From Halomonas sp. LR3S48 (GTDB lineage: Bacteria; Pseudomonadota; Gammaproteobacteria; Pseudomonadales; Halomonadaceae), in assembly GCF_025725665.1 (NCBI RefSeq), contig NZ_CP107009.1, positions 620,001-684,000 of the forward strand: 64,000 nt of DNA. The letters run 5' to 3'. Both the position numbers and the translations under genes were made by a program. Position 1 is the stretch's first letter. Each line of letters opens with the position of its first letter. A model generated the notes under the pieces. That model saw only the letters and a program-made list of their open reading frames with translations, was not told the origin of the DNA and ran no database searches. Positions 23,453-64,000 of this stretch are shown here, one piece after another.

Positions 23453-23653
23453 ATGCTCATCCTGACCCGCCGAGTCGGTGAAACCCTGATGATCGGTGAT
23501 GACATCACCGTGACCGTCCTTGGCGTCAAGGGCAATCAGGTCCGAATTGGCGTCAATGCGCCCAAGGATGTCGCCGTACATCGTGAAGAGATCTACCAGC
23601 GCATTCAGCGTGAGAAGTCCGACGATGAAGGGGGAAGCAGCTCCTCTTCTTGA
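23453..23653 (+). CDS. csrA: Carbon storage regulator CsrA (RsmA)
   Basis: An RNA-binding dimer that blocks or stabilises mRNAs with GGA motifs near their ribosome binding sites. The 66 residues have the conserved RNA-contacting strands: LILTRRVGE at the N-terminus, [19 protein letters not shown] in the second half, then an acidic and serine-rich tail ([10 protein letters not shown]). AGAAGGAG precedes the ATG with good spacing. Its likely antagonist RNA lies in this window at 13180-13435. Confidence 0.97.
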
Positions 23654-55210: not shown

Positions 55211-56098
55211 TCACTCCGGCGGCCCGTAGCGGCCGAGTTCGGCTTGGCGCGGGTCAGGCAAAGTCTCGTCGAGCCAAGTGCCGCACAGCAAGCAGTAGCG
55301 AGCGCGTCGCTCATGACGATCGTTGCCACAGCCGGGGCAGGCCTCGTCCGAGTAGCGCTCCTCGCGAATGGCGCGGATCACCTGGGCCGAGAAGACCCCG
55401 GTCGGCACGGCAATGATCGAATAGCCAATCAGCATCAGCATGACCGTGATCGCCTTGCCCAGCGGGGTCATCGGCACGATGTCGCCATAGCCTACCGTGG
55501 TCAAGCTGACGATGGCCCAGTAGATCGACATCGGGATGCTGGTGAAGCCGGCTTCGGGCGACTCGATCGTGTACATCACCGCGGCGAAGATGGTTACCAG
55601 CACGAAAATGCCGAAGAAGAACAGAATGATCTGATGTGTGCTGCGCCTGAGCGCATCCAGCAACAGACGGCTTTCGCCGACGAACTGCATCAGGCGCAAT
55701 ACGCGGAAGATGCGCATGACCCTCAGTAGGCGCACGATCACCAGCGTTTCCAGGTTGCCGGGTAGGATCAGCATCAGCCAGGTGGGCAGCACGGCGAGTA
55801 CGTCGACTACGCCATAGAAGCTGCGCAAGTAGCGCCAAGGCTTTTCCAGGCAGTAGATACGCAGGGCCAGCTCGATGGTGAATATCAGCGTGAAGCCCCA
55901 CTCCAGCCAGTAGAACCAGTTCCCAAAGGCGGCATCCCAGGCGGCCACGCTTTCCAGCAGTACCACCGCCACACTGGCCAGGATCAACACGATCAGGGCG
56001 ATATCGAAACTTTTTGCCAGTGGTGTATCGGATTCGAAGATGATCTGGAACAGGCGGGTGCGCAACCCCTTGTTTGCGGGTCGATCCGGTTCGCTCAT
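55211..56098 (-). CDS. Voltage-gated-type K+ channel with C-terminal zinc ribbon
   Basis: A 295-residue ion channel. Hydrophobic S1-S4 come first, with an arginine-rich S4 (RLLRVMRIFRVLRL), then S5, the selectivity filter TTVGYGD, and S6 (LIGYSIIAVPTGVFSAQV). After S6 a CxxC pair at C254/C257 and another at C269/C272 suggest a zinc ribbon in the cytoplasm. AGGGAG lies before the ATG at 56098; a start 18 codons upstream is unlikely. It probably passes K+; the ligand of the ribbon is unknown. Confidence 0.88.
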   Translation of the reverse strand: MSEPDRPANKGLRTRLFQIIFESDTPLAKSFDIALIVLILASVAVVLLESVAAWDAAFGNWFYWLEWGFTLIFTIELALRIYCLEKPWRYLRSFYGVVDVLAVLPTWLMLILPGNLETLVIVRLLRVMRIFRVLRLMQFVGESRLLLDALRRSTHQIILFFFGIFVLVTIFAAVMYTIESPEAGFTSIPMSIYWAIVSLTTVGYGDIVPMTPLGKAITVMLMLIGYSIIAVPTGVFSAQVIRAIREERYSDEACPGCGNDRHERRARYCLLCGTWLDETLPDPRQAELGRYGPPE

Positions 56099-56159
56099 CG
56101 CCAAACTCCCTGTAGCGCTTTGCACATTTTTTTTGCTCGCTTTGTTTTGCAACGTTGGC

Positions 56160-57002
56160 TCACACCGCCAGGCGGTGCGCCAGCTTCAACGCCGTGCGGC
56201 CGAAATCCACGCCGAGCCAGTCGCGTTGCTGAAGCATGGCGGCGAGCCGTCCGGCCTCATCGTGGCCGTTTTCGGCAAGTACCTGCAGGGCTTCCCTGGC
56301 CGTTGCCCTCCAGCCATCGTCGCCGGTATCGGACAGGGCATCCAGGGCCAGGATGGCGCGGTGCAGCCGCTCGCTTTCATCGAGCCCTTCTGGCAGTTTC
56401 CAGTGATCGTTGAGCAGGGCGCTGCCACGGGCGGCCTTGCTGGCATCGGCGGGGCGCAGAGGGACCGTTTCGGCAAAGGCCAGCGCCAGGCTCCACAGGG
56501 CCTGCGGATCGCCGTCCTTGAGCTCCAGCTCCAGTTCGCAGATCGGCACGCGCCGGCCGGCGGCGCGAATCTCGCCCTGGTCAAGCGCCACCTCGACGGT
56601 GGCCTCGGCCAGTTCCAGGCGCCATAGGCGGCGCTCGAAGTCGGTGGTGAAGCGCGGCTCGAGCCGCGCCAGCACGTTCTCGCCCAGCGCGGCCATGGGG
56701 GCCAGTTCGGCGAGCCCGGCGCGGTCGAGGCTGCCGCCCGCCACCGGCCACTCCCATTCACGGCGCCGGCTGTAGCCACCACCGCCTTCGCCGCTGGTCT
56801 TGAGGGTCTGCACCCAGCTGTCGTCGCGGCGGCGCAGACGCAGTGCCATGCGCGCGGCTTCCAGCTCACCCTCGGGCGTATCATAGTAGGTGTTCGCCAG
56901 GCGCTGGGCGCCATGCACTCCCCCGCGCAGTAGCGGATGCTGCAGCAGGTGTTCCGGCCCCGTTTCGCCCAGCGCCAGTTTCATCTCGATCTCGTGGCTC
57001 AT
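56160..57002 (-). CDS. CYTH-domain inorganic triphosphatase (YgiF-like)
   Basis: A 280-residue protein beginning with the CYTH signature E-x-E-x-K (HEIEMKLAL at residues 3-11). The tunnel residues follow in YYDTPEGELEAARMALRLRRR and the closing ELELELKDG. The C-terminal part after about 195 may be a helical CHAD-like or YgiF tail. The family hydrolyses inorganic triphosphate. GGGAAGAG precedes the ATG at 57002; the longer frame adds 37 residues. It is divergent from the PhoU-like gene. Confidence 0.87.
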   Translation of the reverse strand: MSHEIEMKLALGETGPEHLLQHPLLRGGVHGAQRLANTYYDTPEGELEAARMALRLRRRDDSWVQTLKTSGEGGGGYSRRREWEWPVAGGSLDRAGLAELAPMAALGENVLARLEPRFTTDFERRLWRLELAEATVEVALDQGEIRAAGRRVPICELELELKDGDPQALWSLALAFAETVPLRPADASKAARGSALLNDHWKLPEGLDESERLHRAILALDALSDTGDDGWRATAREALQVLAENGHDEAGRLAAMLQQRDWLGVDFGRTALKLAHRLAV

Positions 57003-57129
57003 GTCTCTTCCCGCTGCTCCCGGTCTTTCGCCTGAAGGGACCCGCACCCGGGCATATGAATATTTCCATGACGTGACAGGGTGCCATTCTTTATACTGAT
57101 GCCGCCATTTCACAAGCGCATCTTACGCC

Positions 57130-57810
57130 ATGGTCAAATCCAACCCCTTTTCAGCGATGTTCGGCCGTTCGCCGTTCCAGCCGCTGCTGGCGCACATCGC
57201 CAAGTCCAACGAGTGTGCCGACCAGTTGCTGCCTTTCTTCGAGGCCACGCTTGCCGGCGACTGGGACGAGGCCGTCAGGATTCGCGAGATCGTCACGCAA
57301 CTCGAACACGACGCCGACAGCCTCAAGACCGAGCTTCGCCTCAACCTGCCCAATACCCTGTTCCTGCCCGTCTCCCGTACTGATCTGCTCGACCTGATCA
57401 GCGTGCAGGACAAGATCGCCAACAAGGTACGCGACATCACCGGGATCATGCTCGGCCGCCGCATGCAGGTGCCCGTTGAACTGGCCCAGCCCATGCGTGA
57501 CTACATGCAGACCTCCGTGGCCTGTGTCGCCCAGGCGCGCCAGGCGTTGGAGGAGCTCCAGGACCTGCTCGAATCGGGCTTCGGCCGTCATGTTTCCGAC
57601 GTGATGCAGAACCTGATTCGCGAATTGCACATTCTCGAACAGCAGGCCGACCACCAGCAGATCGACATTCGGCGCCGGCTCTTCGACCTGGAAGACCAGC
57701 TCAAGCCGGTGGATGTGGTCTTTCTCTACAAGATCATCGACTGGGTCGGTGAACTCTCCGATCGTGCCGAACGCGTCGGCAGCCGTCTCCAGATTCTCAC
57801 TGCCCGGTAG
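57130..57810 (+). CDS. DUF47/PhoU-like regulator of phosphate transporter
   Basis: A 226-residue all-helical protein of the TIGR00153 (DUF47) family. Metal-binding acid patches typical of PhoU-type helical bundles can be seen (QLEHDADSLKTELR, QDKIANKVRDITG, EQQADHQQIDIRRRLFD). In many bacteria this gene directly precedes a PiT phosphate transporter, as here (68-base gap). It probably adjusts transporter activity. Confidence 0.9.
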   Translation: MVKSNPFSAMFGRSPFQPLLAHIAKSNECADQLLPFFEATLAGDWDEAVRIREIVTQLEHDADSLKTELRLNLPNTLFLPVSRTDLLDLISVQDKIANKVRDITGIMLGRRMQVPVELAQPMRDYMQTSVACVAQARQALEELQDLLESGFGRHVSDVMQNLIRELHILEQQADHQQIDIRRRLFDLEDQLKPVDVVFLYKIIDWVGELSDRAERVGSRLQILTAR

Positions 57811-57878
57811 GACATCGCCGCCCGGCATGGCCGGGGGATGTTCTTTCAACCTGACAGCCACATAGGACCAACCTCCCT

Positions 57879-59144
57879 ATGTCGATCATTGCAGAGCACG
57901 CGTATACCTTCATCATCCTGGCTTGCCTCTTCGGCTTCTTCATGGCCTGGGGCGTCGGTGCCAACGATGTCGCCAACGCCATGGGCACCTCGGTCGGCTC
58001 CAAGGCGATCACCATCAAGCAGGCGATCATCATCGCGGTGATCTTCGAGTTTCTTGGTGCCTGGCTCGCCGGCGGCGAGGTCACCGAGACCATTCGCAAG
58101 GGCATCATCGATCCGGCCGCGCTACAGAATGACCCCCAACTGCTGGTCTACGGCATGCTGGCGTCGCTGCTGGCTGCCGGCACCTGGCTGCTGATCGCCT
58201 CGATGAAGGGCTGGCCGGTATCGACCACCCACTCCATCGTCGGCGCCATCGTCGGCTTCGCCCTGGCGGGGCTGGGCATCGATGCCGTGGGCTGGCCCAA
58301 GGTCGGCCAGATCGCCGCTAGCTGGGTGGTGTCGCCGCTGCTGGCAGGCACCATCGCCTTTACCCTGTTCAAGTCGGTCCAGCACCTGATTTTCGAGGCT
58401 GACGATCCCTTCGTCGCGGCCAAGCGCTACGTGCCTTTCTATATCCTGCTGGTCGGCTTTGCCATCTGCATGGTGACCCTGACCAAGGGGTTCAAGCACA
58501 TTGGCCTGGACATGGGCTTCGGCACCAACCTGCTGCTGTCGGCCCTGTTCGGCCTTGGCATGATGGCGCTGGGCGGCTGGATGGAGAGGCGCGTGCAGGC
58601 CGGCAGCCGTCAGTCCGATCACTTCGGTTTCACCGGGGTGGAGCGTGTGTTCGGCGTACTGATGATCTTCACCGCCTGCGCCATGGCCTTCGCCCACGGT
58701 TCCAATGACGTGGCCAACGCCGTTGGCCCGCTGGCGGCGGTGATCAGTGTCGTCCAGCACGGCGGAGCCATCGAAGGTTCGGCACTGGTGCCCTGGTGGG
58801 TGCTGATATTGGGCGGTGGCGGCATCGTGGTGGGCCTTGTCACCTACGGCCACAAGGTCATCGCCACGGTCGGCACCGGCATCACCGAGCTGACCCCGAG
58901 CCGCGGCTTCGCCGCCACCCTGGCCGCCGCGCTCACCGTGGTGCTCGCTTCCGGTACCGGCCTGCCGATCTCCACCACCCATACGCTGGTCGGTGCGGTA
59001 CTCGGCGTGGGTCTGGCGCGCGGCATGGCGGCACTCAACTTGCGCGTGATCGGCACCATCGCGATGTCCTGGTTGATCACCCTGCCGGCCGGTGCGGGTC
59101 TGGCGATCATGTTCTTCTTCCTGTTCAAGGCAATCTTCGGTTAA
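57879..59144 (+). CDS. pit: Inorganic phosphate transporter, PiT family
   Basis: A 421-residue membrane protein that imports phosphate with a cation (H+ or Na+). The two inverted PiT signatures are intact: GANDVANAMGTSVGSKAI near residue 26 and HGSNDVANAVGPLAAVISV near 270. Each is followed by an STTHS/T motif (STTHSIVGAIVG and STTHTLVGAVLG). About ten transmembrane helices are visible, with a short central loop. It follows the DUF47 gene and ends 48 bases before a terminator. Confidence 0.94.
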   Translation: MSIIAEHAYTFIILACLFGFFMAWGVGANDVANAMGTSVGSKAITIKQAIIIAVIFEFLGAWLAGGEVTETIRKGIIDPAALQNDPQLLVYGMLASLLAAGTWLLIASMKGWPVSTTHSIVGAIVGFALAGLGIDAVGWPKVGQIAASWVVSPLLAGTIAFTLFKSVQHLIFEADDPFVAAKRYVPFYILLVGFAICMVTLTKGFKHIGLDMGFGTNLLLSALFGLGMMALGGWMERRVQAGSRQSDHFGFTGVERVFGVLMIFTACAMAFAHGSNDVANAVGPLAAVISVVQHGGAIEGSALVPWWVLILGGGGIVVGLVTYGHKVIATVGTGITELTPSRGFAATLAAALTVVLASGTGLPISTTHTLVGAVLGVGLARGMAALNLRVIGTIAMSWLITLPAGAGLAIMFFFLFKAIFG

Positions 59145-59191
59145 GCAAGCCACGGCGAAAATCCGTGCGTTGCCCCGCCAGAGAGCCATAG

Positions 59192-59220
59192 CGGCGGCAC
59201 CTTGATGGTGCCGCCGTTTT
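59192..59220 (+). terminator. Terminator after pit
   Basis: A perfect 10-bp stem CGGCGGCACC/GGTGCCGCCG (59192-59201 with 59207-59216) with a five-base loop is followed by TTTT. Confidence 0.88.
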
Positions 59221-59281
59221 CGTCGCTCTGATATAGTCGAATTCGATACACCTTTCTCTCACCTGCTGCCGGAGAGCGGCC

Positions 59282-60595
59282 TTGGACACTCGTTTCCCCT
59301 TCGTCGACTGGTTCCGCAATTCCTCCCCCTATATCAATGCGCATCGGGGCCGAACCTTCGTGATCCTGATCGAGGGCGAGGCCATGGCGCGAGGACGAGG
59401 CGAGCAGCTGATCCAGGACCTGGCGCTGCTGCATACCCTTGGCGTGCGGCTGGTGGTGGTGTTCGGCATTCGCCCCCAGGTGGAGCAGGCCCTGGCCGAG
59501 GCGGGCATCGTGCCGCAGCGCCACGAAGGCCGCTGGGTCGCCGATGAGGCGATCATGGCCTGTGTCGAGCGAGTGGCCGCCGAGCAGCGACTGTGGCTCG
59601 AGGCGCGGCTGTCGCTGGGGCTGCCCAACACGCCGCTGCACGGAGTGGAACTCACCGCGGTGTCCGGCAATCTGGTCATGGCCAAGCCGCTGGGCGTACG
59701 CGAAGGGGTCGACTACGACCACAGCGGCGAGGTGCGCCGAGTACGGGTCTCGGCCGTGCAGGGGCTGCTCGACCGCGGATCACTGGTGCTGTTGCCACCG
59801 CTGGGCTTTTCCAGTACCGGGGAGGTCTTCGATCTGGACGCCGCCGAGGTGGCCCAACATGCGGCAACGGCGCTGGCCGCCGACAAGCTGATTCTGCTGG
59901 GCGAGGCCGCCGGGCTCTATGACGAGAACGGCGCCATGCAGCGCCAGCTCACGCCCGACGAAGCCGAACCGCTGCTGCGCCATGCCGACCCGGGCAGCGA
60001 GCAGGCGCGTCATATCGGCGCCGCCTGTGCCGCCGCACGACTCGGCGTGGCCCGCACGCACCTGCTCTCGTGGCACGACCACGACGCCCTGCTGGGCGAG
60101 CTGTTCACCCGCGACGGGGTGGGCACCATGATTACCCGGCATCGCTACGAGCAATTGCGGCCGGCCGAACTCGGCGACATCGGCGGCCTGCTGGAGTTAC
60201 TGGAGCCGCTGGAGCGGCGCGGCATGCTGGTGCCGCGTTCGCGCGAGCGCCTGGAGTATGAGATCGACGACTACCTGGTGATCGAGCGCGACGGCATGAT
60301 CATCGGCTGCGCGGCGTTGCATCGCTTCGCCGAAGCCGACATGGGCGAGCTGGCCTGCGTGGCAATTCACGTCGACTACCGCGGCGGCGCGCGCGGCTCG
60401 CTGCTGCTCTCGGGAATCGAGCAGCGCGCGAAGCGGCTTGGGCTTGCCTCGCTGTTCGTGCTGACTACCCACACGGCGCATTGGTTCGTCGAACACGGCT
60501 TTCGTCCTGCGGACATCGAATCGCTGCCCACGCTACGGCGCGACACCTACAACCACGCGCGCAAGTCGAAGATTCTCGTCAAGCCTCTCTCATGA
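59282..60595 (+). CDS. argA: N-acetylglutamate synthase ArgA
   Basis: Acetylates glutamate, the first step of arginine synthesis, and is feedback inhibited by arginine. The 437 residues consist of an amino-acid-kinase-like domain (about 1-290, with VFGIRPQVEQALAEAG) and a C-terminal GNAT acetyltransferase domain with CVAIHVDYRGGARGSLLL as the acetyl-CoA loop. The start is a TTG at 59282, preceded by GGAGAG. The E. coli protein has 443 residues. No arginine operator could be recognised. Confidence 0.95.
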   Translation: MDTRFPFVDWFRNSSPYINAHRGRTFVILIEGEAMARGRGEQLIQDLALLHTLGVRLVVVFGIRPQVEQALAEAGIVPQRHEGRWVADEAIMACVERVAAEQRLWLEARLSLGLPNTPLHGVELTAVSGNLVMAKPLGVREGVDYDHSGEVRRVRVSAVQGLLDRGSLVLLPPLGFSSTGEVFDLDAAEVAQHAATALAADKLILLGEAAGLYDENGAMQRQLTPDEAEPLLRHADPGSEQARHIGAACAAARLGVARTHLLSWHDHDALLGELFTRDGVGTMITRHRYEQLRPAELGDIGGLLELLEPLERRGMLVPRSRERLEYEIDDYLVIERDGMIIGCAALHRFAEADMGELACVAIHVDYRGGARGSLLLSGIEQRAKRLGLASLFVLTTHTAHWFVEHGFRPADIESLPTLRRDTYNHARKSKILVKPLS

Positions 60596-60666
60596 GGCCG
60601 CCTGTAGTCTCCCGCCTCCTCCGTCGGGGCCCGGTCGCCGCTCGGTAGCGTATCCCGAGCGGCGGC

Positions 60667-60781
60667 TGTCGCTTTGGGGCAACGCCAGCAAAAGGTTTGT
60701 CTCCAAAAGGCTACAAGCTAACTGGTTGTTTTATAAAGATCGATGCGGGTTCGCTCAAAAGGGTGTCGCCAATCGATGACG
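60667..60781 (+). promoter_or_regulatory. Three TGTC-N10-xACr sites, candidate GlrR enhancer
   Basis: The sites are TGTC-N10-AACG (60667-60684), TGTC-N10-TACA (60698-60715) and TGTC-N10-GACG (60764-60781). The enterobacterial GlrR target is TGTC-N10-GACA; the last two match seven of eight positions. They lie 120-235 bases upstream of a sigma-54-like promoter, a normal distance for an enhancer. A 9-bp palindrome without T-run (60637-60645 with 60655-60663) lies just before them. Confidence 0.45.
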
Positions 60782-60900
60782 AAAAGCGCCCCTGCCACAT
60801 GCTCTTTGCTCAAGTTTCACCTGCACCTTGCCGCATGCCACTTTTATTGTTCTTTTAATATGTTGTTTCTTAAGGGTTATAGAGATTATTGGCATGCAAA

Positions 60901-60915
60901 TGGCACTATACTTGT
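60901..60915 (+). promoter_or_regulatory. Sigma-54-like -24/-12 promoter element
   Basis: TGGCAC (60901-60906), five bases, then TTGT (60912-60915). Spacing is right for TGGCAC-N5-TTGC; the last base is T instead of C. The transcript would start near 60926. Confidence 0.45.
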
Positions 60916-60925
60916 CGAGCAACGA

Positions 60926-61382
60926 AGAAGTGATTCAAACGGCTCGAATCACTTCAGATCGTCGAGAAGCTCGGGGAACACCACCCCCCCATGCCCTGTG
61001 CGACCCGGGCAGCCCGACGATCAGCGTTTGCTCCGCGATGTGTAACTTAGGTTGCGATGAGACGGGTACCGCCGACAGGCAAGGAAAGGTACCAGAAGGG
61101 CAAGGATGCCCCGGCAAGGATGCCTCATCCCCCTCGGGGGATCGAATTACGGGCCAGCGCTAGTGAACTTCACGTAGCGGTGGCGCCAAGGAAACGAAGC
61201 GGGGCGTTCGCCGCCCGCCCGTACCGACGGCTCCTGGTGGCAAAAGAGTCGGTAACGGTGCTTCGGGGCCTTCGGGCCCACTGAAAGTATGGGACATGGC
61301 TCGACCAGGCGAACGATGCCCATATTTTCAACCCCTTCAGTTCCCTGCGTATTGGGCCGGCTTTTGCCGGCCTCTTTTTTTT
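60926..61382 (+). ncRNA. Candidate structured small RNA upstream of glrK
   Basis: No convincing protein is encoded in 60596-61438. A perfect 10-bp hairpin (60927-60936 with 60946-60955) lies exactly at the start predicted from the sigma-54-like element. An 8-bp helix (60957-60964 with 61015-61022), a UUCG-capped stem (61266-61270 with 61275-61279) and a 6-bp helix (61288-61293 with 61319-61324) follow, then a strong terminator. The RNA could be up to about 455 bases, or shorter after processing. In enterobacteria the GlmY RNA lies in this place and is switched on by GlrR with sigma-54. No sequence likeness to GlmY is claimed. Confidence 0.5.
61355..61382 (+). terminator. Strong terminator ahead of glrK
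   Basis: GGCCGGC (61355-61361) pairs with GCCGGCC (61366-61372) around TTTT and is followed by TC and eight T. The nearest plus-strand protein gene upstream ends 760 bases away, so it implies a separate non-coding transcript. Confidence 0.88.
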
Positions 61383-61438
61383 CCAGGTAACGGGGCAGTA
61401 GCCGAGCGTGGAACTCTGTTATCCTTCAGGAATGTACC

Positions 61439-62986
61439 ATGATGGTCCCTTATCCTCTCCTGAATAGAACATTGGTCATGACCAAACGGGTCTCGCGCCG
61501 CTGGCGTCCACGCTCATTGCTGCAGCTCGTGCTGTTGGCGTTCCTGGTAGTGATGCTGCCGTTGGGAATCCTGATGTACCAGGCCGGTCAGGCCTTGTCC
61601 GAATTGTCGCGCCTGGCGGATGTCAGTGCTCGCCAGGCGGTGGAAGAGAGCCGCCGTGCCCGGGTGCTGAGCAATCTGGCCGTCGAGATGGAGCGCAGCG
61701 CGCGCCAGTATGCAGTGCTTGAGCAGGAAAGCCTGCTCGAGCTCTATGCCGAGCGCCACGGCGAATTCCAGGAACTACTGGAACGGCAAAGCCGCTTCCT
61801 GCCCGAAGACGACCCCGATGTGGTGGCACTGGAAGAACAGCTTCTTTTACTCTCGCAGTTGCCGGAACTCGAGGCCGATGCGCTGGAGGTCTGGCTGTCC
61901 CTGTTTGTGCCGTTCGCCGAACATACCGAGGCGATGCGTCGCTCCACCAATCGTCAGATCGATGCCAGCATCGAGATGATCAGTGCGAGAGCGGAAGCCG
62001 TGCAGTCGCGGCTATGGCTGCAGACCACGGCGCTGGTGTCCGCTAGCCTTGTGCTCATGCTGTTGTTCAGTTGGCTGATCATTCGTCCGGTGCGCCAGCT
62101 CGAGCGCCGAATCCTGAGCATTGGCAGCGGCGTGGAAACCAACGACCGCGACACCATCCAGGGCCCCGCCGAACTGGTGCAGCTCGGCGACCGGCTCGAC
62201 TGGCTGTCGACCCGTCTCAGCGACCTCGAGGCCCAGAAGCAGCAGTTCCTGCGCCATATGTCGCATGAGCTCAAGACGCCGCTCGCCAGTGTGCGTGAGG
62301 GCTCGGCACTGCTGGCCGACGGCGTGGCTGGCGAGATGACGTCTCGCCAGCGCGAGATCCTGTCGTTGATCGATACCAGTGGTCGTGAACTGCAGCGGCT
62401 CATCGAACAGCTGCTCGACTACAACCTGCTGCAGCACAACCAGCGCATCATTCTCGAAAGGGTGGACCTGGCCACGCTGGTCAAGGCCACCCTGGCCAAG
62501 CATCGGCTGGCACTGGAGCACAAGGGCATGCAGATAACCGCCTTCGATGGTCCGCTGGAGTGGGTGGTGGACCGTACCGCCATGGAGCGCATTCTCGACA
62601 ATCTGGTCTCCAATGCCATCGCCTATGGCGAGGATGGCGGCGACCTGATGATTCGTGCACATGCCGGGCGGGATCACCTGATTCTCGACGTGGCCAACAG
62701 TGGTGAGCCGATTGCCGAGCATGACCGCCCGCGGCTGTTCGAACCCTTCTATCAGGGACGTTCGCGCCGCAAGGGGCCGCTCAAGGGTTCGGGTATCGGG
62801 CTCTCGGTGGCGGCCGACTGCGCGCGCATCCAGAGCGGCGCCCTGGCGCTGGTAGACGATCGTGAATTCGATGTGTGTTTCCGCCTGACGTTGCCGTATC
62901 AGGCGGTTCCCCTGAGCAAGGAAAATAATAAGATAGAGCCCCTTGAATTGGGCCTTAACGCAAGGAGCGAGGAGCGATGGAGGTGA
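61439..62986 (+). CDS. glrK: Sensor histidine kinase GlrK (QseE)
   Basis: The sensor of the GlrK/GlrR pair that controls sigma-54 genes in enterobacteria. The 515 residues show two transmembrane helices (about 28-48 and 197-216), a periplasmic domain with NLAVEMERSARQYAVLE as in E. coli GlrK, a HAMP region, the phosphoacceptor H276 in RHMSHELKTPLAS, and ATPase boxes (DNLVSNAIAYGEDGG, GSGIGLSVAADCARI). AGGA lies seven bases before the ATG. It overlaps the lipoprotein gene by ten bases. Confidence 0.93.
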   Translation: MMVPYPLLNRTLVMTKRVSRRWRPRSLLQLVLLAFLVVMLPLGILMYQAGQALSELSRLADVSARQAVEESRRARVLSNLAVEMERSARQYAVLEQESLLELYAERHGEFQELLERQSRFLPEDDPDVVALEEQLLLLSQLPELEADALEVWLSLFVPFAEHTEAMRRSTNRQIDASIEMISARAEAVQSRLWLQTTALVSASLVLMLLFSWLIIRPVRQLERRILSIGSGVETNDRDTIQGPAELVQLGDRLDWLSTRLSDLEAQKQQFLRHMSHELKTPLASVREGSALLADGVAGEMTSRQREILSLIDTSGRELQRLIEQLLDYNLLQHNQRIILERVDLATLVKATLAKHRLALEHKGMQITAFDGPLEWVVDRTAMERILDNLVSNAIAYGEDGGDLMIRAHAGRDHLILDVANSGEPIAEHDRPRLFEPFYQGRSRRKGPLKGSGIGLSVAADCARIQSGALALVDDREFDVCFRLTLPYQAVPLSKENNKIEPLELGLNARSEERWR

Positions 62987-63549
62987 GAGTAAACAGCTGT
63001 GCAAGAAAGGCCTTTTATGCCGGTGGACTAGCCCTGCTGATGAGTGGCTGCCAATACCTGCCCGAGAACGCCATGCTCGGCGCGGAGCCGGAAGAAGCCC
63101 CGCAGTCGGTCGCCTGCCGCGCAGCGGAACCGACGTTCGAGAACGAAGCCTGCCTGCTGCCCAGTTGGGTGGCGTACGGCCTGGCGTCGCAGCGCGGTGA
63201 TAGCGAATGGCGCAACAAGACGCTCAATGAGCTGGATAGCGCCTACGACCGAAGCGAAGCCGAACGGGAGCTGGCGCGGGCCGTCGCGCTCTCCTGGGGC
63301 AGCGAGCGGGAATGGCGGCAGGCGGCGGAACTCTACCAGCAGCATACGCATGCCGCGCCGGCCGACTTGCAGCCATTGCTGCTCTACTGGCGCAACGAAC
63401 TGGAAGGGCGGCGCTCCCTGGCCAATCAGAGCACGAACGTACGCGCTCAGGTGGCCACCCTGCAGCGGGAGAAGGCCGAGCTTTCCGAAAAGCTCGAAGC
63501 ACTGACCGCCATCGAGCAGAACATGAACCTGAGACAACAGTCGCCCTGA
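62977..63549 (+). CDS. qseG: QseG-like lipoprotein
   Basis: A 190-residue lipoprotein between glrK and glrR, the place of qseG (yfhG) in E. coli. A signal sequence ends in a lipobox LMSGC with the lipidated cysteine C25. Eight-fold helical segments rich in Glu, Arg and Ala follow, with a coiled coil near the end (QVATLQREKAELSEKLEAL). In enterobacteria QseG binds GlrK and controls its kinase activity. AGGAGCGAGG precedes the ATG. Sequence likeness outside the lipobox and coil is weak, so position carries much of the call. Confidence 0.72.
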   Translation: MEVRVNSCARKAFYAGGLALLMSGCQYLPENAMLGAEPEEAPQSVACRAAEPTFENEACLLPSWVAYGLASQRGDSEWRNKTLNELDSAYDRSEAERELARAVALSWGSEREWRQAAELYQQHTHAAPADLQPLLLYWRNELEGRRSLANQSTNVRAQVATLQREKAELSEKLEALTAIEQNMNLRQQSP

Positions 63550-63580
63550 GGGGCGATCGGGCAACACGGGAGAAGACGTC

Positions 63581-64000
63581 ATGGAAGCGGCTCGATTGAC
63601 CGACACACGCAAGAATGAGGCTCGTAGGCCGGCGGCGGCACGCACGTCGGGTGCGAAGGCAGGCAGCGCCCACGTTCTGCTGGTCGACGACGACGCTAGC
63701 CTGCTACGTCTGCTCGGCATGCGCCTGGAAAGCCGCGGCTACCGGGTGACTACCGCCGAGAGCGGTTCCGAGGCGCTGCGCAGGCTGGAAGCCGAGCGCC
63801 CCGACATCGTGCTCTCCGACCTGCGCATGGACGAGATGGATGGTCTCGCCCTGTTCCAGGCGATCCAGCGCGAGGTGCCGGGGCTGCCGGTCATCATCCT
63901 GACCGCCCACGGCTCCATTCCCGATGCCGTGAACGCCACCCAGCAGGGGGTGTTCAGCTTCCTCACCAAGCCAGTGGATCGCGACGAACTGTTCAAAGCC
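63581..64000 (+). CDS. glrR: Response regulator GlrR (QseF), N-terminal part
   Basis: The window ends inside this gene after 140 residues. A receiver domain follows an unusual basic 28-residue lead-in. It has the acidic pocket D36-D37-D38, the phosphoacceptor D80 (SDLRMDEMDG), T108 and K130. GlrR of E. coli continues with a sigma-54 AAA+ domain and a helix-turn-helix, which would lie past the edge here. GGGAGAAG precedes the ATG. It is the likely activator of the sigma-54-like promoter at 60901. Confidence 0.88.
   Translation, partial: MEAARLTDTRKNEARRPAAARTSGAKAGSAHVLLVDDDASLLRLLGMRLESRGYRVTTAESGSEALRRLEAERPDIVLSDLRMDEMDGLALFQAIQREVPGLPVIILTAHGSIPDAVNATQQGVFSFLTKPVDRDELFKA

Follow-up and report, generated by a model that had tools for sequence, protein, structure and literature searches.

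The argA-glrK gap and its neighbours

In the window, the whole stretch of 64,000 nucleotides of DNA from a salt-loving Halomonas that was analysed, argA (59282-60595) and the gene of a glrK-like sensor kinase are separated by a gap of 843 bases (60596-61438). The kinase gene is followed by a small qseG-like ORF and by glrR, and the only CsrA match of the genome also lies within the window:

61415-61425, plus strand: conserved TCTGTTATCCT directly before glrK, a possible glrK promoter
61439-62986, plus strand: glrK-like sensor kinase with HAMP, HisKA and HATPase_c domains, named from its position and partner
62977-63549, plus strand: small qseG-like ORF, named by position, with no Pfam or NCBIfam match
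63581-64000, plus strand: glrR, truncated by the end of the window
23453-23653, plus strand: csrA, candidate partner of the hairpins described below

The whole glrR gene scores 805 bits against a curated GlrR cut-off of 763, and the order argA, gap, glrK is kept in all 79 extracted gaps (this genome and 78 relatives). The first-pass annotation had described the gap as devoid of any credible protein, a description that stands: the ORFs 60743-61045, 60828-61163 and 61057-61284 (75, 100 and 111 amino acids as a set) gave no Pfam match, nor did the first two give any against NCBIfam, and a protein-coding gap was rejected on these grounds. A search for tandem repeats found none.

A conserved GlrR/sigma-54 promoter

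Upstream of glrK the following promoter features were recognized:

60667-60684, plus strand: GlrR-type upstream site 1, TGTC-N10-AACG, two mismatches to TGTC-N10-GACA, with spacings conserved in relatives
60698-60715, plus strand: GlrR-type upstream site 2, one mismatch to TGTC-N10-GACA and an exact TGT-N12-ACA
60764-60781, plus strand: GlrR-type upstream site 3, one mismatch to TGTC-N10-GACA
60890-60904, plus strand: sigma-54 -24/-12 element TGGCATG-N6-GC, located by alignment with relatives

The three TGTC sites of the earlier annotation were recovered at 60667, 60698 and 60764, and for comparison QseF (GlrR) of E. coli reportedly binds three TGT-N12-ACA sites at glmY with the help of IHF (PMC6075780). 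The -24/-12 element previously placed at 60901-60916 is not the conserved one and is superseded by that at 60890-60904, 11 bases upstream, and the start of transcription is therefore expected near 60916 and not at 60926. All 79 main loci (the window and 78 relatives, with L051 placed by hand) have a TGGCAYR-N6-GC element at the equivalent position, 90-163 bases from the conserved core of the predicted RNA in all of them except L068, where the distance is 62 bases. Moreover, 68 of the 79 loci carry a GlrR-type site (TGTC-N10-GACA, at most one mismatch) 50-270 bases upstream, compared with 8 when the pattern is reversed, and a looser criterion applied to the main loci revealed favoured site spacings of 65, 31 and 66 bases. 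Taken by itself, the sigma-54 pattern does not exceed chance in the window (16 matches with up to two mismatches, 19.6 expected), where no perfect TGTC-N10-GACA was found either (0.83 expected); the case for the promoter is one of conservation, not of the window's own motif matches.

Extent and fold of the predicted RNA

Between this promoter and glrK, the position of the promoter, a terminator and the conservation of the intervening DNA delimit a putative small RNA, whose predicted start lies 12 bases past the -12 C:

60916-61382, plus strand: predicted small RNA of 467 nt
60927-60955, plus strand: 5' hairpin of 10 bp, GAAGTGATTC / GAATCACTTC, also seen in relatives
61065-61093, plus strand: core hairpin 1, with a GGUACC stem, an inner GCC/GGC stem and AAGGA (61081-61085) in a 3' bulge
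61098-61111, plus strand: core hairpin 2, GGGC(AAGGAU)GCCC, a CsrA-type hexaloop
61113-61124, plus strand: core hairpin 3, GGC(AAGGAU)GCC, a CsrA-type hexaloop on an invariant stem
61333-61351, plus strand: 3' element of 19 bases, CCCUUCAGUUCCCUGCGUA, unpaired in the predicted fold
61354-61382, plus strand: intrinsic terminator, a stem at 61354-61373 followed by a T run

Both the 10-bp hairpin and the strong terminator before glrK had been noticed in the first reading of the sequence and were confirmed at these positions. The stretch 60926-61382 folds more stably than all of 100 shuffled versions (z -4.95), and together these features suggest that 60916-61382 is transcribed as a small RNA.

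For the most highly conserved part of the RNA, 61018-61148, 55 sequences were aligned independently of the structure. RNAalifold predicted 21 pairs for this core, 10 of which show one or more two-sided changes, compared with a mean of 3.6 in shuffled alignments (none of 500 reached 10) and 2-5 when the structure was slid along the alignment. The predicted pair cells are in fact paired in 98.0% of cases, the shuffled mean being 94.0 and the slid structures giving 33.5-48.5. The check for covarying helices that the earlier annotation had called for thus gave a divided answer: core hairpins 1 and 2 are supported, the latter with two-sided changes in four of its four pairs, but the stem of hairpin 3 and the 5' helix are not, because the former never varies and the latter has no two-sided change. 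When folded alone, the core of the window adopts the same three hairpins with an unremarkable energy (z -1.62).

CsrA-type sites in the core hairpins

Each of the three core hairpins exposes an A-N-G-G-A, in hairpins 2 and 3 as an ANGGAN hexaloop and in hairpin 1 within the bulge. All 55 aligned rows keep the A and the GGA, and the N varies among them; neither these hairpins nor the 3' element and further copies treated below figure in the first-pass annotation. Such an A-N-G-G-A agrees with the contacts described for RsmE, which binds ANGGAN-loop hairpins through the A and the GGA while the N positions vary (CsrA review, PMC7652899). In total the window RNA holds seven GGA and four ANGGA, two of these as hexaloop hairpins, a number reached by 12 of 2000 shuffles (mean 0.13). 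At least two ANGGAN hexaloop hairpins occur in 79 of 79 main loci (shuffle mean 0.11), loci which were themselves recruited by similarity to the core. Less circular evidence that the loop is kept comes from RNAs built on other stems, namely the second copies of genus g20 (L033), with GGGA(AAGGAU)UCCC, and L237 and L238, glrK-linked RNAs in genus g8, with CTCTCCC(ATGGAT)GGGAGAG. Several GGA in ANGGAN loops, as in CsrA-titrating RNAs though fewer than in CsrB, lead us to infer a binding of CsrA by these ANGGA hairpins.

Distribution and co-occurrence with GlrR

The DNA of the gap is matched in 106 of 151 genomes of the family, belonging to 17 of 24 genera, and a GlrR above 750 bits is encoded by 108 of the 151, a count that leaves out a match of 521 bits in G054. 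All 108 GlrR-bearing genomes show either a DNA match to the RNA (105) or the 3' element with at most two mismatches (102; the element is absent or more divergent in the other six), compared with two of the 43 remaining genomes, one detected by DNA (G135, E 4.6e-6) and the other by an element with two mismatches (G108); the Fisher value for this co-occurrence overstates its certainty, because related genomes are not independent. The proposal of a GlrR/sigma-54-controlled small RNA upstream of glrK, advanced from this single sequence, is strongly supported by the conserved sites and by this co-occurrence.

A core pattern, whose first gap is overlong, was found in seven named records from Salinicola, Halomonas, Franzmannia and Cobetia. 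A core model (R1) matched eight of 341 genomes of the order, seven of them from the same family, and one of 321 genomes of the class, which is this genome; these counts are a lower bound, because the strict filters missed carriers in genus g16. The eighth match in the order lies inside a ychF-like ORF and was taken as chance.

The 3' element and further copies of the RNA

Of the 151 family genomes, 103 contain the 3' element with up to two mismatches, compared with one for a reversed control. Beyond the main loci, 27 further loci were collected, 24 of them fetched by the 3' element or the core, to which the loci of genera g16 and g20 were added; L034, absent from the main alignment by a deletion in its 3' element, is counted here. 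Three hits were left out as probable chance: L235 and L239, which have two mismatches and lie in a frame open over 457 amino acids, and L233, with two mismatches inside open frames and no sigma-54 element. A sigma-54-like element is present in 23 of the 27, of which 22 also carry one or more GlrR-type sites, in most cases some 180 or 115 bases upstream, or at both distances. Several RNA genes with a common region, preceded by a sigma-54 element and by activator sites, are what would be expected of a Qrr-like system.

At least one ANGGAN hairpin occurs in 14 of the 27 further loci. The 13 without it include short forms of about 115-165 nt, and nine of them are GlrR/sigma-54 RNAs endowed with the 3' element: L221, L222, L223, L240, L224, L228, L230 and the glrK-linked L236 and L150. 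Among these, L221 (2960-3205, minus strand, about G000:C1:796.1-796.35 kb) is the second RNA of this very genome, located outside the window next to a HIT-domain gene and upstream of a GGDEF gene on its other side, with the promoter and the 3' element and with one GGA but no ANGGA. In the other four (L181, L226, L229, L234) a sigma-54 element was sought and not found; they have a 3' element and a terminator and are possibly other RNAs sharing the element. As the 3' element and the promoter are kept in copies without ANGGAN hairpins, these two are therefore the common denominator of the RNAs. The CsrA-type hairpins form a second module, often present and strongly kept in the RNA of the window.

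Two loci, L057 and L069, have an argA-glrK gap of about 1.2 kb in which both the sigma-54 element and the 3' element occur twice, some 480 bases apart, so that the RNA gene is, on its sequence, duplicated in tandem. In the minimal RNAs of genus g20 (L224, L228, L230) the UUCCCU of the 3' element recurs in the loop of a hairpin, as would suit a pairing seed. Around position 1500 of L253, L261 and L262, in partly unrelated places, there is a hairpin repeat with AGTTCCCTGCGTAC in sense and a further shared stretch, which looks like a mobile repeat.

Searches for a target of the 3' element gave no conserved mRNA at the lengths searched. In this genome its complement, with G-U pairs and one mismatch allowed, matched only the RNA gene itself, and an exact search with 10 bases, whose 29 hits exclude the RNA copies already known, revealed no conserved complement before a start codon among the 19 examined. 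Three of the hits, L253, L261 and L262, fall in the repeat with AGTTCCCTGCGTAC described above. Most likely, we infer, the 3' element serves as a base-pairing seed or as a chaperone site.

The promoter slot outside the family

Among the 194 genomes searched in the order, 17 from outside the family have a GlrR match of at least 555 bits, 16 of which were fetched and measured and ten read in detail. In six of these ten (L133, L135, L136, L137, L139, L140) GlrR-type sites and a sigma-54-like element, with an altered -12 GC in L137, L139 and L140, precede an ORF of 78-106 amino acids that has a signal-like N terminus and matches Pfam EF-hand models; the remaining four differ in arrangement. With an EF-hand ORF behind a GlrR-type promoter in other families, the promoter slot thus seems to be older than the RNA. 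A conserved GlrR promoter would then stand before different cargos: in enterobacteria glmY, in several other families of this order a small EF-hand protein, and in the present case the RNA. Such a changing cargo would mean that a regulatory slot has been reused.

Proposed mechanism and alternatives

Sequence comparison establishes the conservation of the promoter and its sites, the RNA structure, the 3' element, the extra copies and the co-occurrence with GlrR. The reading that we favour, with a probability of about 0.6, is that of a GlrR-driven RNA of about 467 nt that titrates CsrA and carries in addition, in its 3' part, a module that probably serves as a pairing seed. Its first steps draw on the conserved sites and on the known GlrR system: GlrK would sense a signal and GlrR would be phosphorylated, phosphorylated GlrR would bind the three upstream sites and trigger the sigma-54 polymerase at 60890-60904. 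The RNA would then accumulate and bind CsrA through its two adjacent ANGGAN hexaloops and one bulged ANGGA, so that free CsrA falls, while the 19-base 3' element, exposed before the terminator and found also in other GlrR/sigma-54 RNAs of the same genomes, may have a pairing or chaperone role. Counting against this reading are the few GGA sites in comparison with CsrB, the copies that lack these sites, the unremarkable stability of the core when folded alone, and a 3' element for which no target was found at the lengths searched and which is missing or more divergent in six GlrR-bearing genomes.

Copies without these sites argue for a base-pairing RNA of the Qrr kind, driven by sigma-54, often multi-copy and acting on mRNAs through the 3' element and a chaperone, with the GGA hairpins as structural elements or a side function. 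An element so widespread in the family, unpaired in the predicted fold and kept in RNAs without ANGGAN hairpins is consistent with this alternative, but neither the search in this genome nor the hits examined yielded a conserved complement, and the invariant A and GGA around a varying N in three hairpins would be left unexplained. Overall it appears unlikely, although it is the strongest of the rivals. Far less probable is a GlmY-like decoy that would bind RapZ and thereby control glmS, as its place beside glrK and its promoter type are those of glmY (PMC6075780) but GlmY and GlmZ matches are lacking in 56000-64000, the architecture is different and the hairpins are of the CsrA type. A regulatory leader of the glrK operon instead of a free RNA, suggested by the position directly upstream of glrK on the same strand, is similarly hard to credit and was disfavoured in view of the strong terminator in between, the promoter-like conserved TCTGTTATCCT after it, and copies not adjacent to glrK that have GlrR sites and a sigma-54 element of their own.

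Extended beyond this locus, the CsrA-titrating reading leads to a family of GlrR/sigma-54 RNAs in Halomonadaceae, often several per genome, in which hairpins that titrate CsrA would be joined to a 3' pairing seed that hardly varies, in a GlrR slot of changing cargo, a wider proposal that is tentative and that we hold at slightly under even odds. Gammaproteobacterial CsrA-antagonist RNAs have been described under BarA-UvrY-type control (PMC7652899), and a GlrR/sigma-54-controlled antagonist would, if true, represent a new input into this global regulator, join the envelope-linked GlrKR directly to the Csr network and tell what GlrKR controls beyond enterobacteria. Moreover, RNAs that share a near-invariant 3' element, some having CsrA-type hairpins and others lacking them, allow a direct test of how titration and base pairing can be united in one RNA.

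Comparison with known RNAs

No convincing Rfam family was detected in the region 56000-64000 (best E 0.54, below the cut-off), nor any match above chance in six loci with further copies. The RsmY and RsmZ models gave no convincing match on the same region, and CsrB (RF00018) was found neither in this genome nor above the cut-off in any of 14 genomes, three of which gave weak matches. Among titles and abstract openings listed for open-licence papers, a GlrR- or sigma-54-controlled CsrA-binding RNA of Halomonas is undescribed, though it may be in print elsewhere, and a full-text search returned no open-licence paper on glmY together with Halomonas. A preprint that models the CsrA of H. hydrothermalis names, in the sections available, no antagonist RNA for it (PMC12889724).

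The closest counterpart by position is GlmY, an RNA of about 180 nt. The window RNA, at about 467 nt, with CsrA-type hairpins and another 3' element, has no sequence match to GlmY or GlmZ. Even at E 10 neither was found in 56000-64000 (RF00128 was searched on this region), and GlmZ_SraJ (RF00083) had no match in this genome or in six loci with further copies and none above the cut-off in 14 genomes, five of which gave sub-cut-off matches at E up to 10; homology to GlmY was consequently rejected. What remains of the suggestion of a positional counterpart of glmY is the slot and the promoter type, since enterobacterial GlmY likewise lies directly upstream of glrK-qseG-glrR behind three GlrR/QseF sites and a sigma-54 promoter (PMC6075780), an arrangement found for the window RNA as well; membership in the GlmY family is not supported.

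What the window RNA has in common with CsrB/CsrC and RsmX/Y/Z is GGA presented in hairpin loops as ANGGAN hexaloops (PMC7652899). It differs from them in having fewer sites (four ANGGA, compared with 22 GGA in CsrB; PMC7652899), a conserved 3' element and a predicted control by GlrR and sigma-54 instead of the BarA-UvrY type. McaS and GadY are base-pairing RNAs reported as CsrA antagonists (PMC7652899), and the window RNA, unrelated to them in sequence and regulation, would similarly join CsrA binding with a base pairing that is here only proposed. Also comparable are the RNAs Pf1-Pf3 of Pseudoalteromonas fuliginea, several CsrA-binding RNAs of a marine gammaproteobacterium with 9-25 GGA motifs each, for which the portions of PMC11882849 at hand give no link to GlrR.

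As for the genetic design, the Qrr RNAs of vibrios are controlled by sigma-54 and a response regulator and exist in several copies with one conserved region. The type of RNA described here, with its predicted GlrR/sigma-54 control, is alike in all three respects, and differs from Qrr in its activator, sequence and length, and in its CsrA-type hairpins.
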